Assembly: GCF_000518245.1 (NCBI RefSeq) | Contig: NZ_JADF01000020.1 | Coordinates: 1-64,000 of the forward strand | Reading direction: 5' to 3' | DNA length: 64,000 bases | DNA from: Brachyspira alvinipulli ATCC 51933 | GTDB lineage: Bacteria > Spirochaetota > Brachyspiria > Brachyspirales > Brachyspiraceae | Shown here: positions 50,741-64,000 of the stretch, one piece after another | Numbering within the stretch: the stretch's first letter is position 1 | Layout of the letters: each line of letters opens with the position of its first letter | Position numbers and translations under genes: made by a program | Notes under the pieces: generated by a model | What the model was told of the DNA's origin: nothing | Database searches by the model: none | What the model saw: the letters and a program-made list of their open reading frames with translations, nothing else

Positions 50741-52003
50741 TCATTTCAAACCATATTCTTCTTTAGTACGTTTTACGTTTTCTCTGGCACATTCACTGCT
50801 TGGATCTAATTTTAAAGCCTTCTTATAATCTTTTAATGCCTCTTCATAAAGACCTAAATTTTCCTTAGTAAGGCCTCTGTTATTATAAGCATCTGCATAA
50901 TCAGGTTTTAATTTTATAGCCTTATCAAAATCTTCTATAACTTCTTCATAAAGACCTAAATTATCTTTGGCATTTCCCCTATTATTATAGGCAAAAGCAT
51001 AATTAGGATCTAATTTTATAGCTTTATCATAATCTTTAATAGCTTCTTCATAAAGCTCTAAATTATATTTTGTATTACCTCTGTTATTATAAGCATCTGT
51101 ATTATCAGGTTTTAATTTTATAGCCTTATTAAAATCTTCTATAGCTTCTTCATAAAGTCCTAAATTATCTTTGGCATTTCCCCTACTATTATATGCAAGA
51201 GCATAATTAGGATTTAATTTTATAGCTTTATCATAATCTTTAATAGCTTCTTCATAAAGTCCTAAATTATCTTTGGCAATTCCCCTATTATTATATGCAA
51301 GAGCATAATTAGGATTTAATTTTATAGCTTTGCTAAAATCTTTTATAGCTTCTTTAGAAAATCCCAACTCATCTTCTAATAATCCTTTATTATTATAAGC
51401 ATCAAATAAATTAGGATCTATTGATAAAGCTTTATCAAAATCTTTTATAGCTTCTTCTAAAAGTCCTAAATCACTTTTAAGAAGTCCTCTGTTATAATAA
51501 GCATATGTATAATCAGTTCTTAACTCTATAGCCTTATCATATTCTTCTATAGCTTCTTTTAAAAGTCCAAGTTTAGTTTTGGCAATAGCTTTGTTATAAT
51601 AAGCATCTGCCATATTAGGGTTTAACTTTATAGCTTCATCATAATATTTTATAGCTTCTGCATATTCTCCATTAGCACTTTTATAAATACCTTTAGAATT
51701 ATAATCATGATAATCAGTAAGATTGTTTAAACGATCAATATCAACTTCTTTATTATTGTCAACTATATTTGTAAAACTGACTATAAAATTTTGTTTATCT
51801 GACATTATTTTATTTAATTCTTCATTAAAAGTTTTTGCTTTGTCATTAAAATCATCAAAATCAGAATAATTTTCTGCATCAATATTATTTAAAAAATCAT
51901 TAAATTCTTCTACACATTTATTTAATTCTTTTTGCAAATTCTCTAATTTATTTTTAGATTCTTTTAAATGTTGTCCGAATAGAAAATTAGTCATTGTTGG
52001 CAT
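50741..52003 (-). CDS. TPR-repeat protein
   Basis: 420 residues. Residues 1-95 are helical/coiled; residues ~97-402 hold nine consecutive 34-residue tetratricopeptide repeats with consensus AYNNRGIAKDNLGLYEEAIK and ending KAIKLNPN. Several repeats are nearly identical, so copy number can change by recombination. No signal peptide; a cytoplasmic protein-binding scaffold is likely. AGGAG precedes ATG 52003. It is the last gene before the mobile element. Confidence 0.92.
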   Translation of the reverse strand: MPTMTNFLFGQHLKESKNKLENLQKELNKCVEEFNDFLNNIDAENYSDFDDFNDKAKTFNEELNKIMSDKQNFIVSFTNIVDNNKEVDIDRLNNLTDYHDYNSKGIYKSANGEYAEAIKYYDEAIKLNPNMADAYYNKAIAKTKLGLLKEAIEEYDKAIELRTDYTYAYYNRGLLKSDLGLLEEAIKDFDKALSIDPNLFDAYNNKGLLEDELGFSKEAIKDFSKAIKLNPNYALAYNNRGIAKDNLGLYEEAIKDYDKAIKLNPNYALAYNSRGNAKDNLGLYEEAIEDFNKAIKLKPDNTDAYNNRGNTKYNLELYEEAIKDYDKAIKLDPNYAFAYNNRGNAKDNLGLYEEVIEDFDKAIKLKPDYADAYNNRGLTKENLGLYEEALKDYKKALKLDPSSECARENVKRTKEEYGLK

Positions 52004-57407: not shown

Positions 57408-58355
57408 ATGTCTTCTAAAAAAAAGAATGAATTAATATTAAAAAGGAATAATATAATAAGCCAAGAGCAAGCAGAACTTCTTTACAAACAAGCTAACTAC
57501 TTAAATATACTTGACTATATGAAAGAAGAGCAGCTTATTAAACAGATAGATTATGAAACAGAGAAAGAAAACTTTTTTAAGCAATGTTCAAAAACAAAAA
57601 GCAATCACACAAAAAGACAGTATAAAAACGGACTTAATAAACTAGAGGAATACTGTAAAATGAATAATAAGAATATTTTATTTATTAAAGCAAGAGAAGC
57701 TGATGATTTTATAACAGAAGTTAATTCTAGTGAGCTTTCTAATTTAAGTGTACGTGCATTAGTTTCTTCCTGTTCCTCTTTCTTTTCATTTTTAGAAAGA
57801 AGATATCCATTTATGAAAAATCCTTTTCGAGGTACAAAAACTCGTCCGCCTGTGAAAAATAAAAAACGTTTGGAAGTACCAACTAAAAAAGAAATTGAAT
57901 TAATAATTAAAGATGTATCAGATCCGCTTATAAAAGTGGCCATCATTTTTATAATGGAATGCGGTGTGCGTGTTGGTGCTTTATCTAATTTAGAAATTAG
58001 AAACAATCCCACAGGGACACATTCGTGTAAATATTATTCTTATTCAAAAGGAAAAGAAATAAGCTGGAAAGTTACTGACAAAGTTATTAAATTATTAAAA
58101 CAGAATAATCTCTCTTTTAATAATCCTTTCAAAAATAAAAGTTCTGAAGTAATAAGAAACATCTTTTATAGAAGTTCAAAGCGTTTATATGAACAAGGCA
58201 AAATAAAAGCTGCCTACTCTATACACGATATAAGGCATTATTTTGCTGTTACTCTATACAAACAAACCAAAGACATAGAACTTATTAGACAGGCATTAAA
58301 TCATAGTAGTATAGCTATAACAGGAATATACTTAAAAAGTTTGGAGGTAGAATAA
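57408..58355 (+). CDS. Tyrosine recombinase (integrase)
   Basis: 315 residues. N-terminal SAM-like DNA-binding domain (about 50-140) and catalytic domain with the full set: Arg188 (CGVRVGALS), His273 and Arg276 (HDIRHYF), His299 (LNHSS), Tyr308 (TGIYLK). It carries out site-specific strand exchange: integration/excision of this element or inversion of a segment. Two copies of a palindromic site flank the neighbouring GHKL gene, the nearer one 130 bases from this gene. Its stop overlaps the next start as TAATG. Confidence 0.93.
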   Translation: MSSKKKNELILKRNNIISQEQAELLYKQANYLNILDYMKEEQLIKQIDYETEKENFFKQCSKTKSNHTKRQYKNGLNKLEEYCKMNNKNILFIKAREADDFITEVNSSELSNLSVRALVSSCSSFFSFLERRYPFMKNPFRGTKTRPPVKNKKRLEVPTKKEIELIIKDVSDPLIKVAIIFIMECGVRVGALSNLEIRNNPTGTHSCKYYSYSKGKEISWKVTDKVIKLLKQNNLSFNNPFKNKSSEVIRNIFYRSSKRLYEQGKIKAAYSIHDIRHYFAVTLYKQTKDIELIRQALNHSSIAITGIYLKSLEVE

Positions 58356-58483
58356 TGAAAAAAAGATTAATAGTTTGCAGATTCAAATATAAAGAATATA
58401 AACTACTAAAAAGATTAGCTAAAGAAAATAATATGAGCGTACGTAAGTATATAAAAAAACTTATTTTAGAATATAGTAAATAA
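58355..58483 (+). CDS. 42-aa ribbon-helix-helix protein
   Basis: A short beta strand (RLIVCRFKY) and two helices (YKLLKRLAKENN, SVRKYIKKLILEY) fit a minimal ribbon-helix-helix fold as in Arc or CopG. It is coupled to the recombinase by TAATG and likely acts as a directionality factor or autoregulator, with the palindrome at 58486 immediately after its stop a natural target. Confidence 0.65.
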   Translation: MKKRLIVCRFKYKEYKLLKRLAKENNMSVRKYIKKLILEYSK

Positions 58484-58485
58484 AC

Positions 58486-58508
58486 TGTTGCGATAATTTG
58501 TGTTATCG
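58486..58508. promoter_or_regulatory. Palindromic site, left copy
   Basis: TGTTGCGATAAT (58486-58497), TTGTG, TTATCG (58503-58508); CGATAA and TTATCG form the inner palindrome. The inverted partner is at 60606-60628. It could be a recombinase core site, a ribbon-helix-helix operator, or the hairpin ending the recombinase operon. Confidence 0.65.
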
Positions 58509-58544
58509 AAATTATAATTAATATTGTAAAACAAGAATGCATAA

Positions 58545-60572
58545 CTAGTTTTTATTATTTATAATTGTCAATTTAGATTTTATATTCTTAAAGTCTAAAT
58601 TTGGGTATTTTGTATCTAAATTATTAAATATATAATCGTCTATGACTTTTAATTCATTTCCCATATAAGTTAATTTATCTCTATTAATTTTTATTAAATC
58701 AATCCATTGCATAATCCATATTTCTATATTGTTATCATTAAATGTAAAAGTTGGTTCTTTTAATTTTATAGTATTTTTTAATTTGTTATTTATACTTGAA
58801 CCAATTAATATTAATTTAAATTTAACATCAGTTTTAGATATTTTATTAGATTCATTTATAAGATTAGCATAATCTTGTATTTGTTCAACTTCTTTATATC
58901 CTATATGAAGAGATGGTCTTTTCAATTCCACAATTAATACTTCATGTCTATTAGTATATTTAAAATCAACCCAAAAAAACAGATCAGTTATTTTTTTTAT
59001 TTCATTTTTTATTGTTATTTCATCTGCTTCATTTGTATTTTTAATAATATTGTTTCTTAAGTCAATTAAATTATTACCAAGATTTTTATCACTTTTCAAT
59101 ATGGTATTATGACTATATTCTTCTCCAAATATCCATAGTTCTTTTTCTACAATTTTATGCAATTCTTGTCTTTCTAATATATATTTAGATATATCATCAG
59201 CATAGTTTATTTTTTCTAAAAAATCTAAAAAACACATTTTAGAAGCTACATCATCAGCAAAAGGAATGATTTTATCTAATTCTGTTTTATCTACCAAATC
59301 ATTAAATCTTTCAATTAGATCTTTTGGTAAAATACTAATATTGTTAATAATTTTCATAAAATTTGGATTTTCTATACATCCATTTAATAATGGATAAATT
59401 ATTTTAATAAGATCCTTATTTTTATTAGATAATAACTTATATTTTTGTTCTATTGAGTATGCTATTTGAATAAAAGCATATTCTTTACTTTTAGAAGAAC
59501 TTTCTTCATTTTTATACGGATAATTATCATCTTTTATTAATTTAGATTTGAAATCAAAATATTCTTGATATTGTTCTAGAAAAAAATTTTCTATATCTAT
59601 CCTTACTTTATCTAAAAAATTTTTTATATTAATATCAATATCATTAAAATCCATATTTTCAAAAATATCTAAATTATCATCTATATATTGCGAATCAACA
59701 TATATATGCCAACTTATTTTTGCTTTTCCTTTATAAGGTATATCAATTTCTATTTCAAAATAATTTAATATATTTTTAACACCGTTATTTTCTGTTCTTA
59801 TACAAATCGTTTTATTTTCCTTATTATTTTTTGATTTATGTTCTATAATATCATACTGAATGGAGTAATTATTATATTCACTATTAAATTGTTTTCTAGA
59901 TAATTGATAATCTTCTGCATTAACTTTTTTTTCATTAACAAAAAAAGAAATATTTTTATCAAGCATTTCTACAGGATAAGTAGTAAACAATGATAAACCT
60001 ATATTTTCTATTTTTAATGCATTATTAATTTTATGTTTTCTTTTATTATAGTTTATATCTTCTTCTGTAATCATATCTTTAATTTCTATTAAAAAATATG
60101 TGTCTTCTTTTGAATCAAAAATATCATGAAATATTTCTACTTCTTTATCTATATATCCAAGTTGAAGCTCATCTAGTTTTAATGTACAGTAGGTTTTTGT
60201 ATATTTTTCTAAAGTTTTATCGTATGAAATCGTTTCAAAATATACTGTTTTACCAAATTGAAAAACAGAAAATCTTCCAGTACCTTTCCCTTTAGGTTTT
60301 ATGTCTGTAGCTATTTCTAATATTTTTTTTGGAAAATCACTAAATGATACTCCAACACCATCATCTCTAATCGATAAAAAAGATATACTATCCTTTATTA
60401 ATTCATTAGGAGAATTAGATTCCATATTCAATTCTATAATTTTTGCTGATGCTTGGATAGAATTATTTATAAGTTCACATAATGCTAAAAAAGTATTGTT
60501 TTTATCTATTAAAGCACTTGTTATTAATCTTCCATTTACTTTTATTAATTTACTTTCTTTTTTTACAGACAT
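58545..60572 (-). CDS. GHKL ATPase fused to PD-(D/E)XK nuclease
   Basis: 675 residues, no signal peptide. N-terminal GHKL (HSP90/MORC/histidine-kinase-type) ATP-binding domain: N-box ALCELINNSIQAS (Glu33, Asn37), G1 loop DDGVG (Asp70, Gly72, Gly74), G2 loop GKGTGR at 95-100. The middle is a helical region. C-terminal domain: VDF with Asp536, then LIVELKRPS with Glu549 and Lys551, then QIQDYANL: the PD-(D/E)XK nuclease core as in DUF4263/Shedu-type proteins. An ATP-gated nuclease is inferred, most likely an anti-phage or anti-plasmid defence gene carried as cargo. AGGA precedes the ATG. Inverted palindromic sites flank the gene on both sides. Confidence 0.8.
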   Translation of the reverse strand: MSVKKESKLIKVNGRLITSALIDKNNTFLALCELINNSIQASAKIIELNMESNSPNELIKDSISFLSIRDDGVGVSFSDFPKKILEIATDIKPKGKGTGRFSVFQFGKTVYFETISYDKTLEKYTKTYCTLKLDELQLGYIDKEVEIFHDIFDSKEDTYFLIEIKDMITEEDINYNKRKHKINNALKIENIGLSLFTTYPVEMLDKNISFFVNEKKVNAEDYQLSRKQFNSEYNNYSIQYDIIEHKSKNNKENKTICIRTENNGVKNILNYFEIEIDIPYKGKAKISWHIYVDSQYIDDNLDIFENMDFNDIDINIKNFLDKVRIDIENFFLEQYQEYFDFKSKLIKDDNYPYKNEESSSKSKEYAFIQIAYSIEQKYKLLSNKNKDLIKIIYPLLNGCIENPNFMKIINNISILPKDLIERFNDLVDKTELDKIIPFADDVASKMCFLDFLEKINYADDISKYILERQELHKIVEKELWIFGEEYSHNTILKSDKNLGNNLIDLRNNIIKNTNEADEITIKNEIKKITDLFFWVDFKYTNRHEVLIVELKRPSLHIGYKEVEQIQDYANLINESNKISKTDVKFKLILIGSSINNKLKNTIKLKEPTFTFNDNNIEIWIMQWIDLIKINRDKLTYMGNELKVIDDYIFNNLDTKYPNLDFKNIKSKLTIINNKN

Positions 60573-60605
60573 AATTAATTCCTAATATTTATATATAATG
60601 TATTA

Positions 60606-60628
60606 CGATAACCTTTATTATCGCAACA
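60606..60628. promoter_or_regulatory. Palindromic site, right copy
   Basis: Inverted relative to the left copy: on the minus strand TGTTGCGATAAT, AAAGG, TTATCG, 18 of 23 positions matching. It lies in the 71-base gap upstream of the GHKL gene, where it would overlap that gene's promoter. Confidence 0.65.
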
Positions 60629-60643
60629 CCTATAATCAATAAA

Positions 60644-60844
60644 TTATATATTTAATTCTTTTAATACAGCATCTCTAATATATTGAGATACACTGACATT
60701 GTTCTGTTCTGCTTTTTCTTTTATTAGGAGCTGTTCTTTTTCACTAACACGCATATATAATTTAATGTCAAGCCTATCTTCTGTCTTTCTTTTTGGTCCA
60801 GAGTTAGCTCTAGCCCCTCCCCAGCTATTTTTTTTATTATCCAT
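60644..60844 (-). CDS. Ribbon-helix-helix DNA-binding protein
   Basis: 66 residues. WGGARANSGPKRK at 8-20 is an AT-hook-like basic arm found in plasmid mobilisation and control proteins; then a ribbon-helix-helix: IKLYMRVSEKEQLLIKEKAE and SVSQYIRDAVLKEL. Its start overlaps the end of the second small peptide by eight bases (ATGGATAA). Probably represses this operon or acts in mobilisation. Confidence 0.75.
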   Translation of the reverse strand: MDNKKNSWGGARANSGPKRKTEDRLDIKLYMRVSEKEQLLIKEKAEQNNVSVSQYIRDAVLKELNI

Positions 60845-60935
60845 TATTATGACCTCTTTTCAATAAAAGAACTAATACTACTATATTAAGTGATAATGAT
60901 ACTACAGATAATATTGCATTTACAGTTGTTAACAT
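60837..60935 (-). CDS. 32-aa hydrophobic peptide
   Basis: One membrane segment (AILSVVSLSLNIVVLVLLLK), then a short basic end. AAAGGAG lies 9 bases before ATG 60935, and the stop overlaps the next start. The size and charge pattern match small membrane toxins, but no family motif is clear. Confidence 0.6.
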   Translation of the reverse strand: MLTTVNAILSVVSLSLNIVVLVLLLKRGHNNG

Positions 60936-61047
60936 CTTGACAACTCCTTTATAATGTATATAATATTAACTATGGAAGTCAGGAGCCAAGTCGGCTAACT
61001 TAGCTCCCTTTCGTGACTAATAAAAATTATTTTTTAATTTTTATTAG
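60926..61047 (+). ncRNA. Candidate antisense RNA of the toxin gene
   Basis: On the plus strand TTGTTA (60926-60931), an 18-base spacer, TATAAT (60950-60955). The transcript would include the 10-bp hairpin 60982-61007 (GGAGC...GCTCC) and end at the perfect 13-bp stem CTAATAAAAATTA / TAATTTTTATTAG (61017-61047), covering the 3' end of the toxin ORF, as in TxpA/RatA-type systems. Confidence 0.5.
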
Positions 61048-61113
61048 TTTAACCACAATTACGATAAGAGTCACGATATCAATAATTGTAGCTATGAAAG
61101 TTAAGACTTCCAT
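61027..61113 (-). CDS. Type I toxin-like hydrophobic peptide
   Basis: 28 residues: MEVLTFIATIIDIVTLIVIV then VKLIKIKK. One membrane helix and a Lys-rich tail, close to the putative holin-like toxin (Hol_Tox/BsrG-like) pattern. GAAGGAGG lies 6 bases before the ATG; the promoter is consensus. The 14 bases around the start codon (61105-61118) are complementary to the same message 3' of the ORF (60967-60980), with one G-U pair, which would hide the start in the full-length RNA. This is the design of type I toxin messages. Confidence 0.75.
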   Translation of the reverse strand: MEVLTFIATIIDIVTLIVIVVKLIKIKK

Positions 61114-61146
61114 AATTACCTCCTTCATTTCTTTAGGATTGATTAT

Positions 61147-61174
61147 ATTATACTACAATCTTGAAAATTGTCAA
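61147..61174 (-). promoter_or_regulatory. Consensus promoter of toxin operon
   Basis: On the minus strand TTGACA (61174-61169), a 16-base spacer, TATAAT (61152-61147): both hexamers perfect. Transcription would start about 27 bases before the toxin start codon. Confidence 0.85.
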
Positions 61175-61194
61175 TACTATTCAAGTAGTAAATA

Positions 61195-61347
61195 ATAATT
61201 TATTTTAATTTTTTTCTTATCTGAATTATAACTGATTTATATTCAATTGGCTGGGGGTGGGGAAAATCTCTGTGGGCTTTTACTCGGTGCAACGAGTGGG
61301 GAGTCTTTTATGCATGGCGATAACTTTTTTATTAGGGGGTATCAATA
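61195..61347. other. G-rich intergenic patch
   Basis: Between the toxin promoter and the 3' end of the coiled-coil gene. It holds GGCTGGGGGTGGGG and a hairpin ACTCG-GTGCAA-CGAGT at about 61284-61300. On the minus strand this forms the 3' end region of the coiled-coil gene. No gene is convincing. Confidence 0.4.
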
Positions 61348-61617
61348 TCATTTTTCTAATTCTTTAATTTTATTTTCTAATTCATCAATTCTTTTTACAG
61401 TTTCTTCTAATTCTTCCACTCTTTTCTTTAATTTCTGCATTTCACTGCCTTTTTCTTCGTATTCTTTTTTAGCTTTTGCAACACAAGCCTGCACAAAACC
61501 ACCAAATGTAGAATTAGAATAATTTAGAGGATCTGCTTTAGCTTTTTCAACCATTTTTACAATCCATCTATATATATCTTGATTAAAATTAATAGTTATA
61601 CCATTCCTAGAATCCAT
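61348..61617 (-). CDS. Small coiled-coil protein
   Basis: 89 residues. N-terminal half resembles a DNA-binding ribbon/helix region (GITINFNQDIYRWIVKMVEK); the C-terminal 40 residues are a regular Glu/Lys coiled coil (KLKKRVEELEETVKRIDELE). AAGGAG precedes the ATG. Divergent from the cassette array. Possibly a partition or regulatory protein of the element. Confidence 0.65.
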   Translation of the reverse strand: MDSRNGITINFNQDIYRWIVKMVEKAKADPLNYSNSTFGGFVQACVAKAKKEYEEKGSEMQKLKKRVEELEETVKRIDELENKIKELEK

Positions 61618-61703
61618 TAATATTCTCCTTTTTTGAATTATATTATTTATTTATAAAAAGTTATAAAAATAACCAATTTAACAATTTGGCAATTTAAAAG
61701 TCT

Positions 61704-61796
61704 GAAAAATAACTTTTTGCGGAAAAGAACTTGCTATCTTTTGGAACAGAGTTATTGTCATCACATAAATAATTAATTAAAAAAGGTAATCAAAAA
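61704..61796 (+). repeat. Cassette promoter repeat, unit 1
   Basis: First and most divergent unit: CTTTTTGCGGAAAAGAAC, then TTGCTA - 16 bases - TATTGT, the box GAACAGAGTTATTGTCATCA (61744-61763), CACATAAATAATTAA and a weak AAAGG ribosome site. Confidence 0.85.
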
Positions 61797-62108
61797 ATGA
61801 ATCAAGAAGTAATCAAAAATGTAGAGCTTATATTAAATAAATTATTAGAGACAGAGCATTTAACAATAGAAGTTCTTAGTAATCAAATAAAAATATTTGC
61901 ATACGGAAAACACATAGCAGATTTTTCAGTATCTTATGGAAGTTATTATAACTTAAAATCCTATACACCAACTGAAAATTGCATAGGTGATTCTGACATA
62001 GCGGATAGAGATGTATATGCAGACTTATTATTATTAATATCAAAAATGTTAAGAACAAATAACTATACTAATATAATGAAAATATTAGAAACTCTTATAA
62101 GTAAATAA
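61797..62108 (+). CDS. Cassette 1 gene A, unknown
   Basis: 103 residues, acidic, alpha/beta (KIFAYGKHIADFSVSYGSYY), no family recognised. Followed 13 bases later by a second gene, the only cassette seen with two genes. Confidence 0.75.
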   Translation: MNQEVIKNVELILNKLLETEHLTIEVLSNQIKIFAYGKHIADFSVSYGSYYNLKSYTPTENCIGDSDIADRDVYADLLLLISKMLRTNNYTNIMKILETLISK

Positions 62109-62121
62109 ATGGAGGTTATAT

Positions 62122-62355
62122 ATGCAAGATAAAATAACAACATTAGAAGATGCCAAAAAAAAATTAGGTCATAATTTATTAATATTAGAAAACAAAAACA
62201 GTATTATAGTATTTGATAGAGAGAAATATGCTTTATATAAAAAAAATGTGAACTGTATAATTTTTACTAAAGAAGGGAAATTTAAATATTATTCAAGTAT
62301 GACTAACGATTTAAGATTACGTAAAAGATTATATGAACAGCTGTTAAAGAAGTGA
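62122..62355 (+). CDS. Cassette 1 gene B, unknown
   Basis: 77 residues, basic, with IIVFDREKYALYKKNVNCII. GGAGG precedes the ATG. Not related to the other cassette proteins by eye. Confidence 0.7.
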   Translation: MQDKITTLEDAKKKLGHNLLILENKNSIIVFDREKYALYKKNVNCIIFTKEGKFKYYSSMTNDLRLRKRLYEQLLKK

Positions 62356-62374
62356 TAAAGAAAAATAATTTTTG

Positions 62375-62402
62375 TAGGGCTGTTTTAACAGCCCTATTTT
62401 TT
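62375..62402 (+). terminator. Cassette 1 terminator
   Basis: TAGGGCTGTT paired with AACAGCCCTA, then T6. Confidence 0.88.
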
Positions 62403-62523
62403 CCTTAATTTTTAAAAAATAAGTGAGAAAAAATTATAGTTTCGCAGGAAAAGAACTTGCTATCTTTTGGAACAGAGTTATTGTCATCACATAAATAAAT
62501 AATTAAAAAAGAGGTAATTAAAA
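62401..62523 (+). repeat. Cassette promoter repeat, unit 2
   Basis: CCTTAATTTT spacer, TAGTTTCGCAGGAAAAGAAC, TTGCTA - 16 - TATTGT, the common box, and GAGGTAATTA ribosome site. Confidence 0.92.
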
Positions 62524-62823
62524 ATGATTAATTTTAGTTTGAATGATATAAAAGAAGGATTAAAAGAATACTACTCAGAAAAAGCAGCTGAATTATTAGC
62601 AGAACATTTGGTAGTAAAAGAGCAAGGAGCAAGTTTACCAATTTTAGCTTCATTAAATGAAAATGATGAATATGAAGTATCTATAGGCTATGATCTTATT
62701 AAAGATGTTTATCAAGAGTTTGATACAGAGGGCTTTATTAAATATTTAGAAGAAAATGAAAATCTGTATGGTGATAATATATTAATTAGTGATGATAATT
62801 TAGTAATATGCTATATAGAATAA
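62524..62823 (+). CDS. Cassette 2 gene, unknown acidic protein
   Basis: 99 residues, strongly acidic. FSLNDI near the start and DLIKDVYQEFDTEGFIKYLE near the end match the cassette 3 protein (FTLDSI, QVILNVFKEFTTKEFIDFVK), so the two are distant paralogues. Function unknown. Confidence 0.75.
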   Translation: MINFSLNDIKEGLKEYYSEKAAELLAEHLVVKEQGASLPILASLNENDEYEVSIGYDLIKDVYQEFDTEGFIKYLEENENLYGDNILISDDNLVICYIE

Positions 62824-62846
62824 TAATATAATTATTATATTAAATG

Positions 62847-62871
62847 AGGGGCATTAATCCCCTTATTTTTT
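62847..62871 (+). terminator. Cassette 2 terminator
   Basis: AGGGG (62847-62851) paired with CCCCT (62859-62863), then a T-rich tail. Confidence 0.82.
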
Positions 62872-62990
62872 GCCTTAATTTTAAGAAATAAATGTGAAAA
62901 AATTATAGTTTCGCAGGAAAAGAACTTGCTATCTTTTGGAACAGAGTTATTGTCATCACATAAATAAATAATTAAAAAGAGGTAAATAAA
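62871..62990 (+). repeat. Cassette promoter repeat, unit 3
   Basis: 120 bases, identical to unit 5 over the spacer and box (GCCTTAATTTTAAGAAATAA, TTTCGCAGGAAAAGAAC, common box, AGAGGTAA). Confidence 0.92.
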
Positions 62991-63308
62991 ATGACAACTT
63001 TTACATTAGATAGTATTGCTAAAAAAATATTAGAAAACACTAATTTTTCTAAAAATTCATCTGAGACAATAGCTAATTTTATAATAGAAGATGATTGCTT
63101 TACACTTGAAGAAGATTTTTTTTCAAGGGTATATGATAAAGAAAAAAAAGAACTTATAATTGATGTTGATATACAAGTAATATTAAATGTATTTAAAGAG
63201 TTCACTACTAAAGAATTTATAGATTTTGTTAAAGATAAAAAGAATAAGTTTGATAAGAATAAAATAATGAAAAAAGGAGCTAATTATATATTGTATAGAA
63301 TGTTTTAA
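62991..63308 (+). CDS. Cassette 3 gene, paralogue of cassette 2
   Basis: 105 residues; similar to the cassette 2 protein at both ends but divergent in the middle. Charged, no membrane segment, no Cys pair. Function unknown. Confidence 0.75.
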   Translation: MTTFTLDSIAKKILENTNFSKNSSETIANFIIEDDCFTLEEDFFSRVYDKEKKELIIDVDIQVILNVFKEFTTKEFIDFVKDKKNKFDKNKIMKKGANYILYRMF

Positions 63309-63313
63309 TATCA

Positions 63314-63350
63314 AAAAATAAGGGGCTTTAAAGCCCCTTATTTTTTTGCC
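63314..63350 (+). terminator. Cassette 3 terminator
   Basis: AAAAAATAAGGGGCTTT (63314-63330) and its exact complement (63331-63347): a 17-bp palindrome with no unpaired centre in the DNA, then T-rich. Confidence 0.9.
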
Positions 63351-63460
63351 TTAATTTTAGTAAATAAGTAAGAAAAAAATAACTTTTTTCGGAAAAGAAG
63401 TTGCTATCTTTTGGAACAGAGTTATTGTCATCACATAAATAATTAAAAGAGGTAATTACA
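63347..63460 (+). repeat. Cassette promoter repeat, unit 4
   Basis: Variant with CTTTTTTCGGAAAAGAAG before TTGCTA, closer to unit 1 in this part but the same downstream box and ribosome site. Confidence 0.9.
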
Positions 63461-63763
63461 ATGGATAAAAAAGAAATATTAAAAAACATAGAAGAAGATA
63501 TGCTCATTATTATAGAAGTTCAAAAGAACAGCAGTGATGATTTATTCTTAAAGGGATTTTTAATTGATAATTTGTATGATATAGCAGATAATGAAAATGC
63601 ATTTTATAAAGAAGAGTTAAATGAACACGTAAAATATTGTAATTCTTGTAATTATTATTATTTTACTATTATAGATAATGATGATGTGGATAGAATAAAA
63701 GGTGATGTAGTAAGGTTACCAAACGATTATATGACAGCAGTACATTTATTTAAACTTCTTTAA
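63461..63763 (+). CDS. Cassette 4 gene, unknown acidic protein
   Basis: 100 residues, acidic; includes HVKYCNSCNYYYFTIIDNDD with one Cys pair. Not visibly related to the other cassette proteins. AGAGGTAATTACA precedes the ATG. Confidence 0.75.
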   Translation: MDKKEILKNIEEDMLIIIEVQKNSSDDLFLKGFLIDNLYDIADNENAFYKEELNEHVKYCNSCNYYYFTIIDNDDVDRIKGDVVRLPNDYMTAVHLFKLL

Positions 63764-63782
63764 TATTATATTTAATTGTATA

Positions 63783-63808
63783 AAGGGGCATTAAAGCCCC
63801 TTATTTTT
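63783..63808 (+). terminator. Cassette 4 terminator
   Basis: AAGGGGC (63783-63789) paired with GCCCCTT (63796-63802), then ATTTTTGCC. Confidence 0.88.
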
Positions 63809-63925
63809 GCCTTAATTTTAAGAAATAAATGTGAAAAAATTATAGTTTCGCAGGAAAAGAACTTGCTATCTTTTGGAACAGAGTTATTGTCATCACATAA
63901 ATAATTAAAAAAGAGGTAATTAAAA
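63808..63925 (+). repeat. Cassette promoter repeat, unit 5
   Basis: 118 bases nearly identical to unit 3; ends AAGAGGTAATTAAAA before the next gene. Confidence 0.92.
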
Positions 63926-64000
63926 ATGATTCAATTAGAAAGATATTTTAGAATATACGGTGAGGCAACTAAGGCATTAAGAGAATGCAAATATGAAAAT
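63926..64000 (+). CDS. Cassette 5 gene, cut by window edge
   Basis: The first 25 codons only, starting MIQLERYFRIYGEATKALRE. The start and ribosome site follow the pattern of the other cassettes. It runs off the right edge. Confidence 0.7.
   Translation, partial: MIQLERYFRIYGEATKALRECKYEN

Follow-up and report, generated by a model that had tools for sequence, protein, structure and literature searches.

The paraMORC3 proteins, as defined by Iyer et al. 2008, carry a GHKL domain, an S5 domain and a C-terminal RE-fold domain with an E-D-ExK motif; they are spread widely but sporadically, are reported as prevalent among Proteobacteria and Bacteroidetes and include some stand-alone members, and mismatch repair was raised as a role for the versions in non-R-M contexts (PMC2292703). 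VcSduA, from the WASA lineage of V. cholerae, joins a GHKL domain to a PD-(D/E)xK Shedu nuclease and was assigned to type I-D by its authors; it was shown in 2025 to defend cells from T1-like Drexlerviridae and from vibriophage X29, the substitutions E27A and K557A abolish defence, so that both active sites are needed, and the cultures bearing it were robustly protected at all tested MOIs, in a non-abortive manner (PMC12137116). The same system has been reviewed (PMC12409362).

Here we analyzed a window of 64,000 nucleotides (positions 1 to 64,000 of contig NZ_JADF01000020.1 of Brachyspira alvinipulli ATCC 51933), in which a gene at 58545..60572 on the minus strand encodes a protein of 675 aa from an ATG start. 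With a probability of about 0.85, judged from sequence comparison and structural models, this protein acts alone as an anti-phage nuclease of the VcSduA/paraMORC3 kind and is carried as exchangeable cargo of a Brachyspira prophage. It shares the GHKL, S5 and RE-fold domains and the E-D-ExK motif of paraMORC3 and differs from the described distribution of that group as a member from a Spirochaetota prophage. Like VcSduA, it unites an N-terminal GHKL ATPase and a C-terminal PD-(D/E)xK nuclease in one protein, encoded by a single gene on a mobile island, and its E33 and K551 stand at positions comparable to E27 and K557 of VcSduA and are likely their counterparts; unlike VcSduA, it is found in a Brachyspira prophage, where an RNA module and the gene of a putative small regulator precede it. 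Compared by architecture, residues and published description, the protein fits VcSduA and type I-D, which was reportedly defined by Gu 2025, and a feature of that type, the N-terminal GHKL ATPase as a regulatory domain, is predicted in it as well. Therefore, the kind is already known and the member is newly found, and a preliminary description of this DNA, which saw no clearly matching named system, was wrong on this point, since both paraMORC3 (PMC2292703) and VcSduA (PMC12137116) match. GHKL-Shedu nucleases would thus extend to spirochaete prophages.

The GHKL/S5 half

In an ORF check, 58545-60572 was open on the minus strand only, the plus strand being full of stops; the single 675-residue chain of the preliminary description therefore stands as one open frame, with its strand corrected to minus. 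The fusion of a GHKL ATPase to a PD-(D/E)XK nuclease that it described was likewise borne out, by Pfam and by residues conserved in 124 homologues. HATPase_c_3 (GHKL) matched residues 29-148 (60129..60488, minus strand) with a Pfam E of 7.5e-10, which exceeds the gathering cut-off, and this region holds the N-box E33/N37, D70-D-G72-V-G74 and G97-T-G99-R100. Among the 124 aligned homologues, E33, N37, D70, G72, G74, K92, G97, G99 and R100 were invariant or missing in a single row, so that the N-box, DDGVG and GKGTG loops are intact, as first read.

The full-length AlphaFold2 model (80-sequence alignment) had a pLDDT of 79.7 and a pTM of 0.58, and when it was compared with the PDB, residues 11-345 (59538..60542, minus strand) resembled the GHKL + S5/transducer module of MORC3, MORC4, MORC2 and TRAP1, the best match being MORC3 5ix2 (Z 17.4, 278 residues, rmsd 4.2, spanning residues 11-338). 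An S5-type domain is thus predicted after the GHKL domain. The full-length family profile, searched against PDB sequences, matched in the GHKL half only. The ATPase module is shared with MORC2/3/4, MutL, GyrB and TRAP1, whereas these have other C-terminal parts and none has a Shedu-type nuclease. Membership of the MZA system was considered and rejected: the NCBIfam and PADLOC searches gave only a weak local match to the GHKL part of MzaB (E ~0.01 over 55-58 residues), which at 14.1 bits over 55 residues is far under the family cut-off of 850 bits (NF041932).

The nuclease half

Conservation, profile match and predicted fold place a Shedu-like PD-(D/E)XK nuclease domain at about residues 455-640 (58653..59210, minus strand). 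E467, W480, D530, E549, K551, Q564 and Y568 were invariant or missing in one row of the same alignment, and the E-D-ExK set of E467, D530, E549 and K551 was present in 123 of the 124 homologues. D536, E549 and K551 had been proposed as the nuclease residues; E549 and K551 hold, but the column of D536 varies (E 49, A 19, Q 17, others), and the conserved position that we read as the catalytic Asp is D530 in 'ITDLFF', followed by E549-L-K551 (codons on the minus strand at 58983-58985 for D530, 58926-58928 for E549 and 58920-58922 for K551). Since the ATPase and nuclease residues are near-invariant over 124 homologues from several phyla, the observation of two domains is not due to chance; at the level of sequence, each of the two active sites has its full set of residues and is under constraint.

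The AlphaFold2 model of the C-terminal part (residues 410-675, 86 sequences) reached a pLDDT of 84.8 and a pTM of 0.83. When VIA-align 2 was run on candidate chains proposed by Foldseek, the Shedu entries 8ps4, 8ps5, 8ti9 and 8ti8 took ranks 1-4 (Z 10.2, 10.1, 9.1 and 9.0), and behind them came the nickase BspD6I (Z 8.8) and FokI (Z 7.7), the nickase rows lying within 1.4 Z. Foldseek itself gave no match below E 0.001 for the nuclease domain alone, its best being an archaeal repair endonuclease at 1.6e-3; because these E-values are weak, we base the Shedu assignment on the structural Z combined with profile comparison. In hhalign, the nuclease profile of the family matched SduA_C with a probability of 92.7 and an E of 4.3e-7, with the D, ExK and Q aligned, compared with 60.1 and 8.6e-5 when HSDR_N_2 served as a generic control and 35.5 and 3.9e-4 when that control was matched to SduA_C. 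These comparisons indicate that the C-terminal nuclease is homologous to SduA_C/DUF4263. It resembles canonical Shedu SduA (8ti8/8ti9, 8ps4/8ps5) in predicted nuclease fold and in the order of the catalytic D, ExK and Q, and differs in that its regulatory half is a MORC-like ATPase and in that Pfam SduA_C is blind to its nuclease.

Indeed, Pfam SduA_C (PF14082) had no match at E<=1 on the 675-aa protein, and the PADLOC and NCBIfam models did not recognise it as Shedu. In single-sequence searches of 13 relatives, PADLOC SduA matched one (E 0.02) and Pfam HSDR_N_2 matched all 13 (best 3.1e-6); the nuclease profile had no match in the PDB by sequence. It appears, then, that single-sequence models miss a nuclease domain that profile comparison detects, and that the current annotation libraries (Pfam, NCBIfam, PADLOC) overlook GHKL-Shedu nucleases. 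Of the checks suggested in the preliminary description, the search with defence-system models and DUF4263 was thus negative with the library models and positive in the profile-profile comparison with SduA_C, and structure prediction gave a MORC-like N-terminal and a Shedu-like C-terminal half.

Homologues and their neighbours

Relatives were gathered from Brachyspira genomes, plasmids, phages, genome contigs and viral contigs, 124 members forming the conservation alignment. Scanning the genome contigs with the single 675-aa sequence found no relatives, and scanning them with the family alignment found 277. Among 100 related genomes the distribution was patchy, with the GHKL-nuclease in four, all of one genus. 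The family tree has two deep clades (support 100), which are open to experimental comparison. The clade of the 675-aa protein, with an 'NN' N-box, consists, beside other spirochaetes, mostly of Bacteroidota, to which are added a Geobacter, one planctomycete and some others; the second clade, with a 'WN' N-box, includes Pseudomonadota, Actinomycetota, Bacillota, Planctomycetota and some Bacteroidota. The E-to-K spacing is 518-525 in the former and about 494-518 in the latter, and that of VcSduA, at 530, is nearer the clade of the 675-aa protein, which is a weak hint of affinity.

At 121 loci with 1196 neighbouring ORFs, no partner gene was conserved, and therefore the GHKL-nuclease probably works alone; the recurrent neighbours, judged by eye, were mostly phage structural, conjugation-like and recombinase genes. 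Homologues were found on plasmids, phages and other mobile elements, for example near drt2 (Drt2) and R-M genes on a Psychrobacter plasmid and among the tail genes of Pasteurella phages. At four Bacteroidota loci (L065, L074, L077 and L087) the homologue lies just downstream of a common row of conjugation-like genes, an arrangement that suggests carriage as cargo by a conjugative element. On the Phaeobacter plasmid pGal_E78 (L012 945-7858) the homologue overlaps a type ISP restriction enzyme gene by 4 bp, possibly as an operon, and on the Paracoccus plasmid pBEN two ORFs resembling HamA (DUF1837) and a HamB-type helicase were recognised by eye directly downstream of it (L014 8983-9936 and 9921-13565).

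An exchangeable cargo slot in Brachyspira prophages

The terminase small and large subunit (TerS, TerL), portal, protease and capsid genes were recognised by eye just past the window on the same contig, and a tyrosine integrase gene (57408..58355, plus strand) adjoins the nuclease gene at the convergent end of the cargo slot; the mobile element proposed earlier is thus a prophage. The slot from TerL to the integrase covers 58352-64000 of the window and extends to 64734 of the contig (C11), with others at L021, L024, L165-L174 and L177-L183, and searches with each protein found the integrase and TerL pair in most Brachyspira genomes.

We read 19 slots of 3.5-10 kb in Brachyspira and identified their cargo by PADLOC and Pfam. 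The cargo was IetAS in G010 (3e-204, 8.7e-124), ABC-3C components in G019 and G022, PDC-M30 with DUF5131 in G005, a C5 methyltransferase paired with GmrSD_N in G024 and, judged by sequence, also in G017, a C5 methyltransferase without GmrSD_N in G023, DUF488 in G000-C5 (by sequence also G011), the GHKL-nuclease with DUF3800 in G007, and the GHKL-nuclease with a protein giving a borderline NERD match in G016 (three copies, one with stops); G004 and G019b had little or no cargo. Judged by this content, the slot is where related Brachyspira prophages exchange their defence systems, and it offers a handle for finding more Brachyspira defence genes.

Proposed mode of action and alternatives

In the mode of action that we propose, the GHKL + S5 half would dimerise on ATP and form a clamp that closes around DNA or around a phage product bound to DNA. 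This closure would position the C-terminal PD-(D/E)XK domains (E467, D530, E549, K551) so that they cut invading DNA in a metal-dependent way, and hydrolysis of the ATP would reopen and reset the clamp. The clamp-nuclease reading and the guess at a defence role in the preliminary description are supported; clamp closure on DNA, the trigger and the direct cutting of phage DNA are what we infer for this protein. The residue map (E33; D530, E549, K551) points directly to mutants for studying the gating of a nuclease by a MORC-type clamp, an issue common to eukaryotic MORCs.

Several PD-(D/E)XK defence effectors act by abortive infection, and the gene adjoins a predicted toxin-antitoxin-like module (described below), both of which would suit an effector that, once triggered, cuts host and phage DNA and kills the cell. 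We regard this as unlikely, because the protection by VcSduA at all tested MOIs argues for direct restriction (PMC12137116). The plan of MutL, also a GHKL domain with a nuclease, recalls a repair or mismatch-type protein serving the phage's own DNA metabolism, for which speak the suggestion of Iyer 2008 for non-R-M contexts (PMC2292703) and the homologues among the tail genes of Pasteurella phages; this is very improbable given the patchy distribution in 4/100 related genomes of a single genus, the place of the GHKL-nuclease among the many defence cargos that are exchanged there, in the prophage slot, and a nuclease of the Shedu type, to which the phage-restricting VcSduA belongs.

The nuclease might also be a generic PD-(D/E)XK domain outside Shedu (e.g., HSDR_N/Vsr/FokI-like) that works with the GHKL ATPase as part of an R-M system. 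HSDR_N_2 was matched by 13/13 members in the single-sequence searches, nucleases of the FokI/BspD6I type follow closely in fold rank (Z 8.8), and some homologues abut R-M genes. However, the SduA_C profile match (E 4.3e-7) beats the HSDR_N_2 control (8.6e-5), Shedu entries head the fold list, and neither a methylase nor any other partner is conserved, so that we give this explanation a small chance and prefer the stand-alone nuclease of the VcSduA/paraMORC3 kind.

The head of the slot

A gene for a small basic protein of 66 aa (60644..60844, minus strand) lies 71 nt upstream of the nuclease gene and likely encodes a putative regulator of the ribbon-helix-helix type. The protein is identical in three genomes (the window, G006 and G005; copies at L004 3611-3811, minus strand, and G005:C3:4733-4930) with differing cargo downstream, and has homologues in 17 of the 26 genomes of the genus. 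The G006 nuclease is merely 36-38% identical to the 675-aa protein, though the upstream 66-aa gene is identical, which fits an exchange of cargo behind a head that stays the same.

A 32-aa hydrophobic peptide (60837..60935, minus strand) overlaps the start of the small regulator gene, and 60962..61141 (minus strand) holds a conserved structured RNA module of ~180 nt with a small hydrophobic peptide (probable start 61113, MEVLTFIATIIDIVTLIVIVVKLIKIKK). A perfect sigma-70 promoter, TTGACA-16-TATAAT (61147..61174, minus strand), is directed at the peptide, small regulator and nuclease genes, and another (60937..60964, plus strand) faces it, with a predicted antisense RNA. Most slots contain a single such pair upstream of the small gene, the two perfect consensus promoters lying on opposite strands and pointing at each other across 228-258 bp (window 60937-61174; L021 8329-8567; L024 10399-10638; L165-L173, L177, L180, L118-L120), and between them lie the small hydrophobic peptide and the conserved RNA, whose start region is paired to its 3' part.

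The fold z of the RNA module was -8.7 in the window and -7.6 and -9.3 in two further copies, and compensatory changes were seen in 13 of 30 consensus pairs over 12 sequences, not all of them independent because these sequences are related. A covariance model found 31 places in 18 of the 26 Brachyspira genomes, including the 12 model-building sequences, whose matches are built in, and under stricter filters it found none in the 172 further Spirochaetota genomes; Rfam had no match for the module. Some weaker matches lie in slots lacking a perfect promoter pair (G004, G009, G019b), which means that the module and the cargo do not strictly go together.

The RNA module may be akin to Hok/AapA-type toxin mRNAs with antisense RNA, and the head module resembles, as a candidate, a type I toxin-antitoxin system or an antisense-controlled leader. 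Further, we put forward tentatively, at somewhat less than even odds, that this is a dedicated defence slot, in which a conserved head (facing promoters, peptide/folded mRNA, predicted antisense RNA and small regulator) controls the following cassette or addicts the host to it, the GHKL-Shedu nuclease being one exchangeable cargo. The slot and its RNA head were less expected than the nuclease itself. In addition, beside the prophage, at 50741-52003 of the window (minus strand), we observed a gene for a 420-aa protein made up largely of TPR-like repeats with near-identical units.
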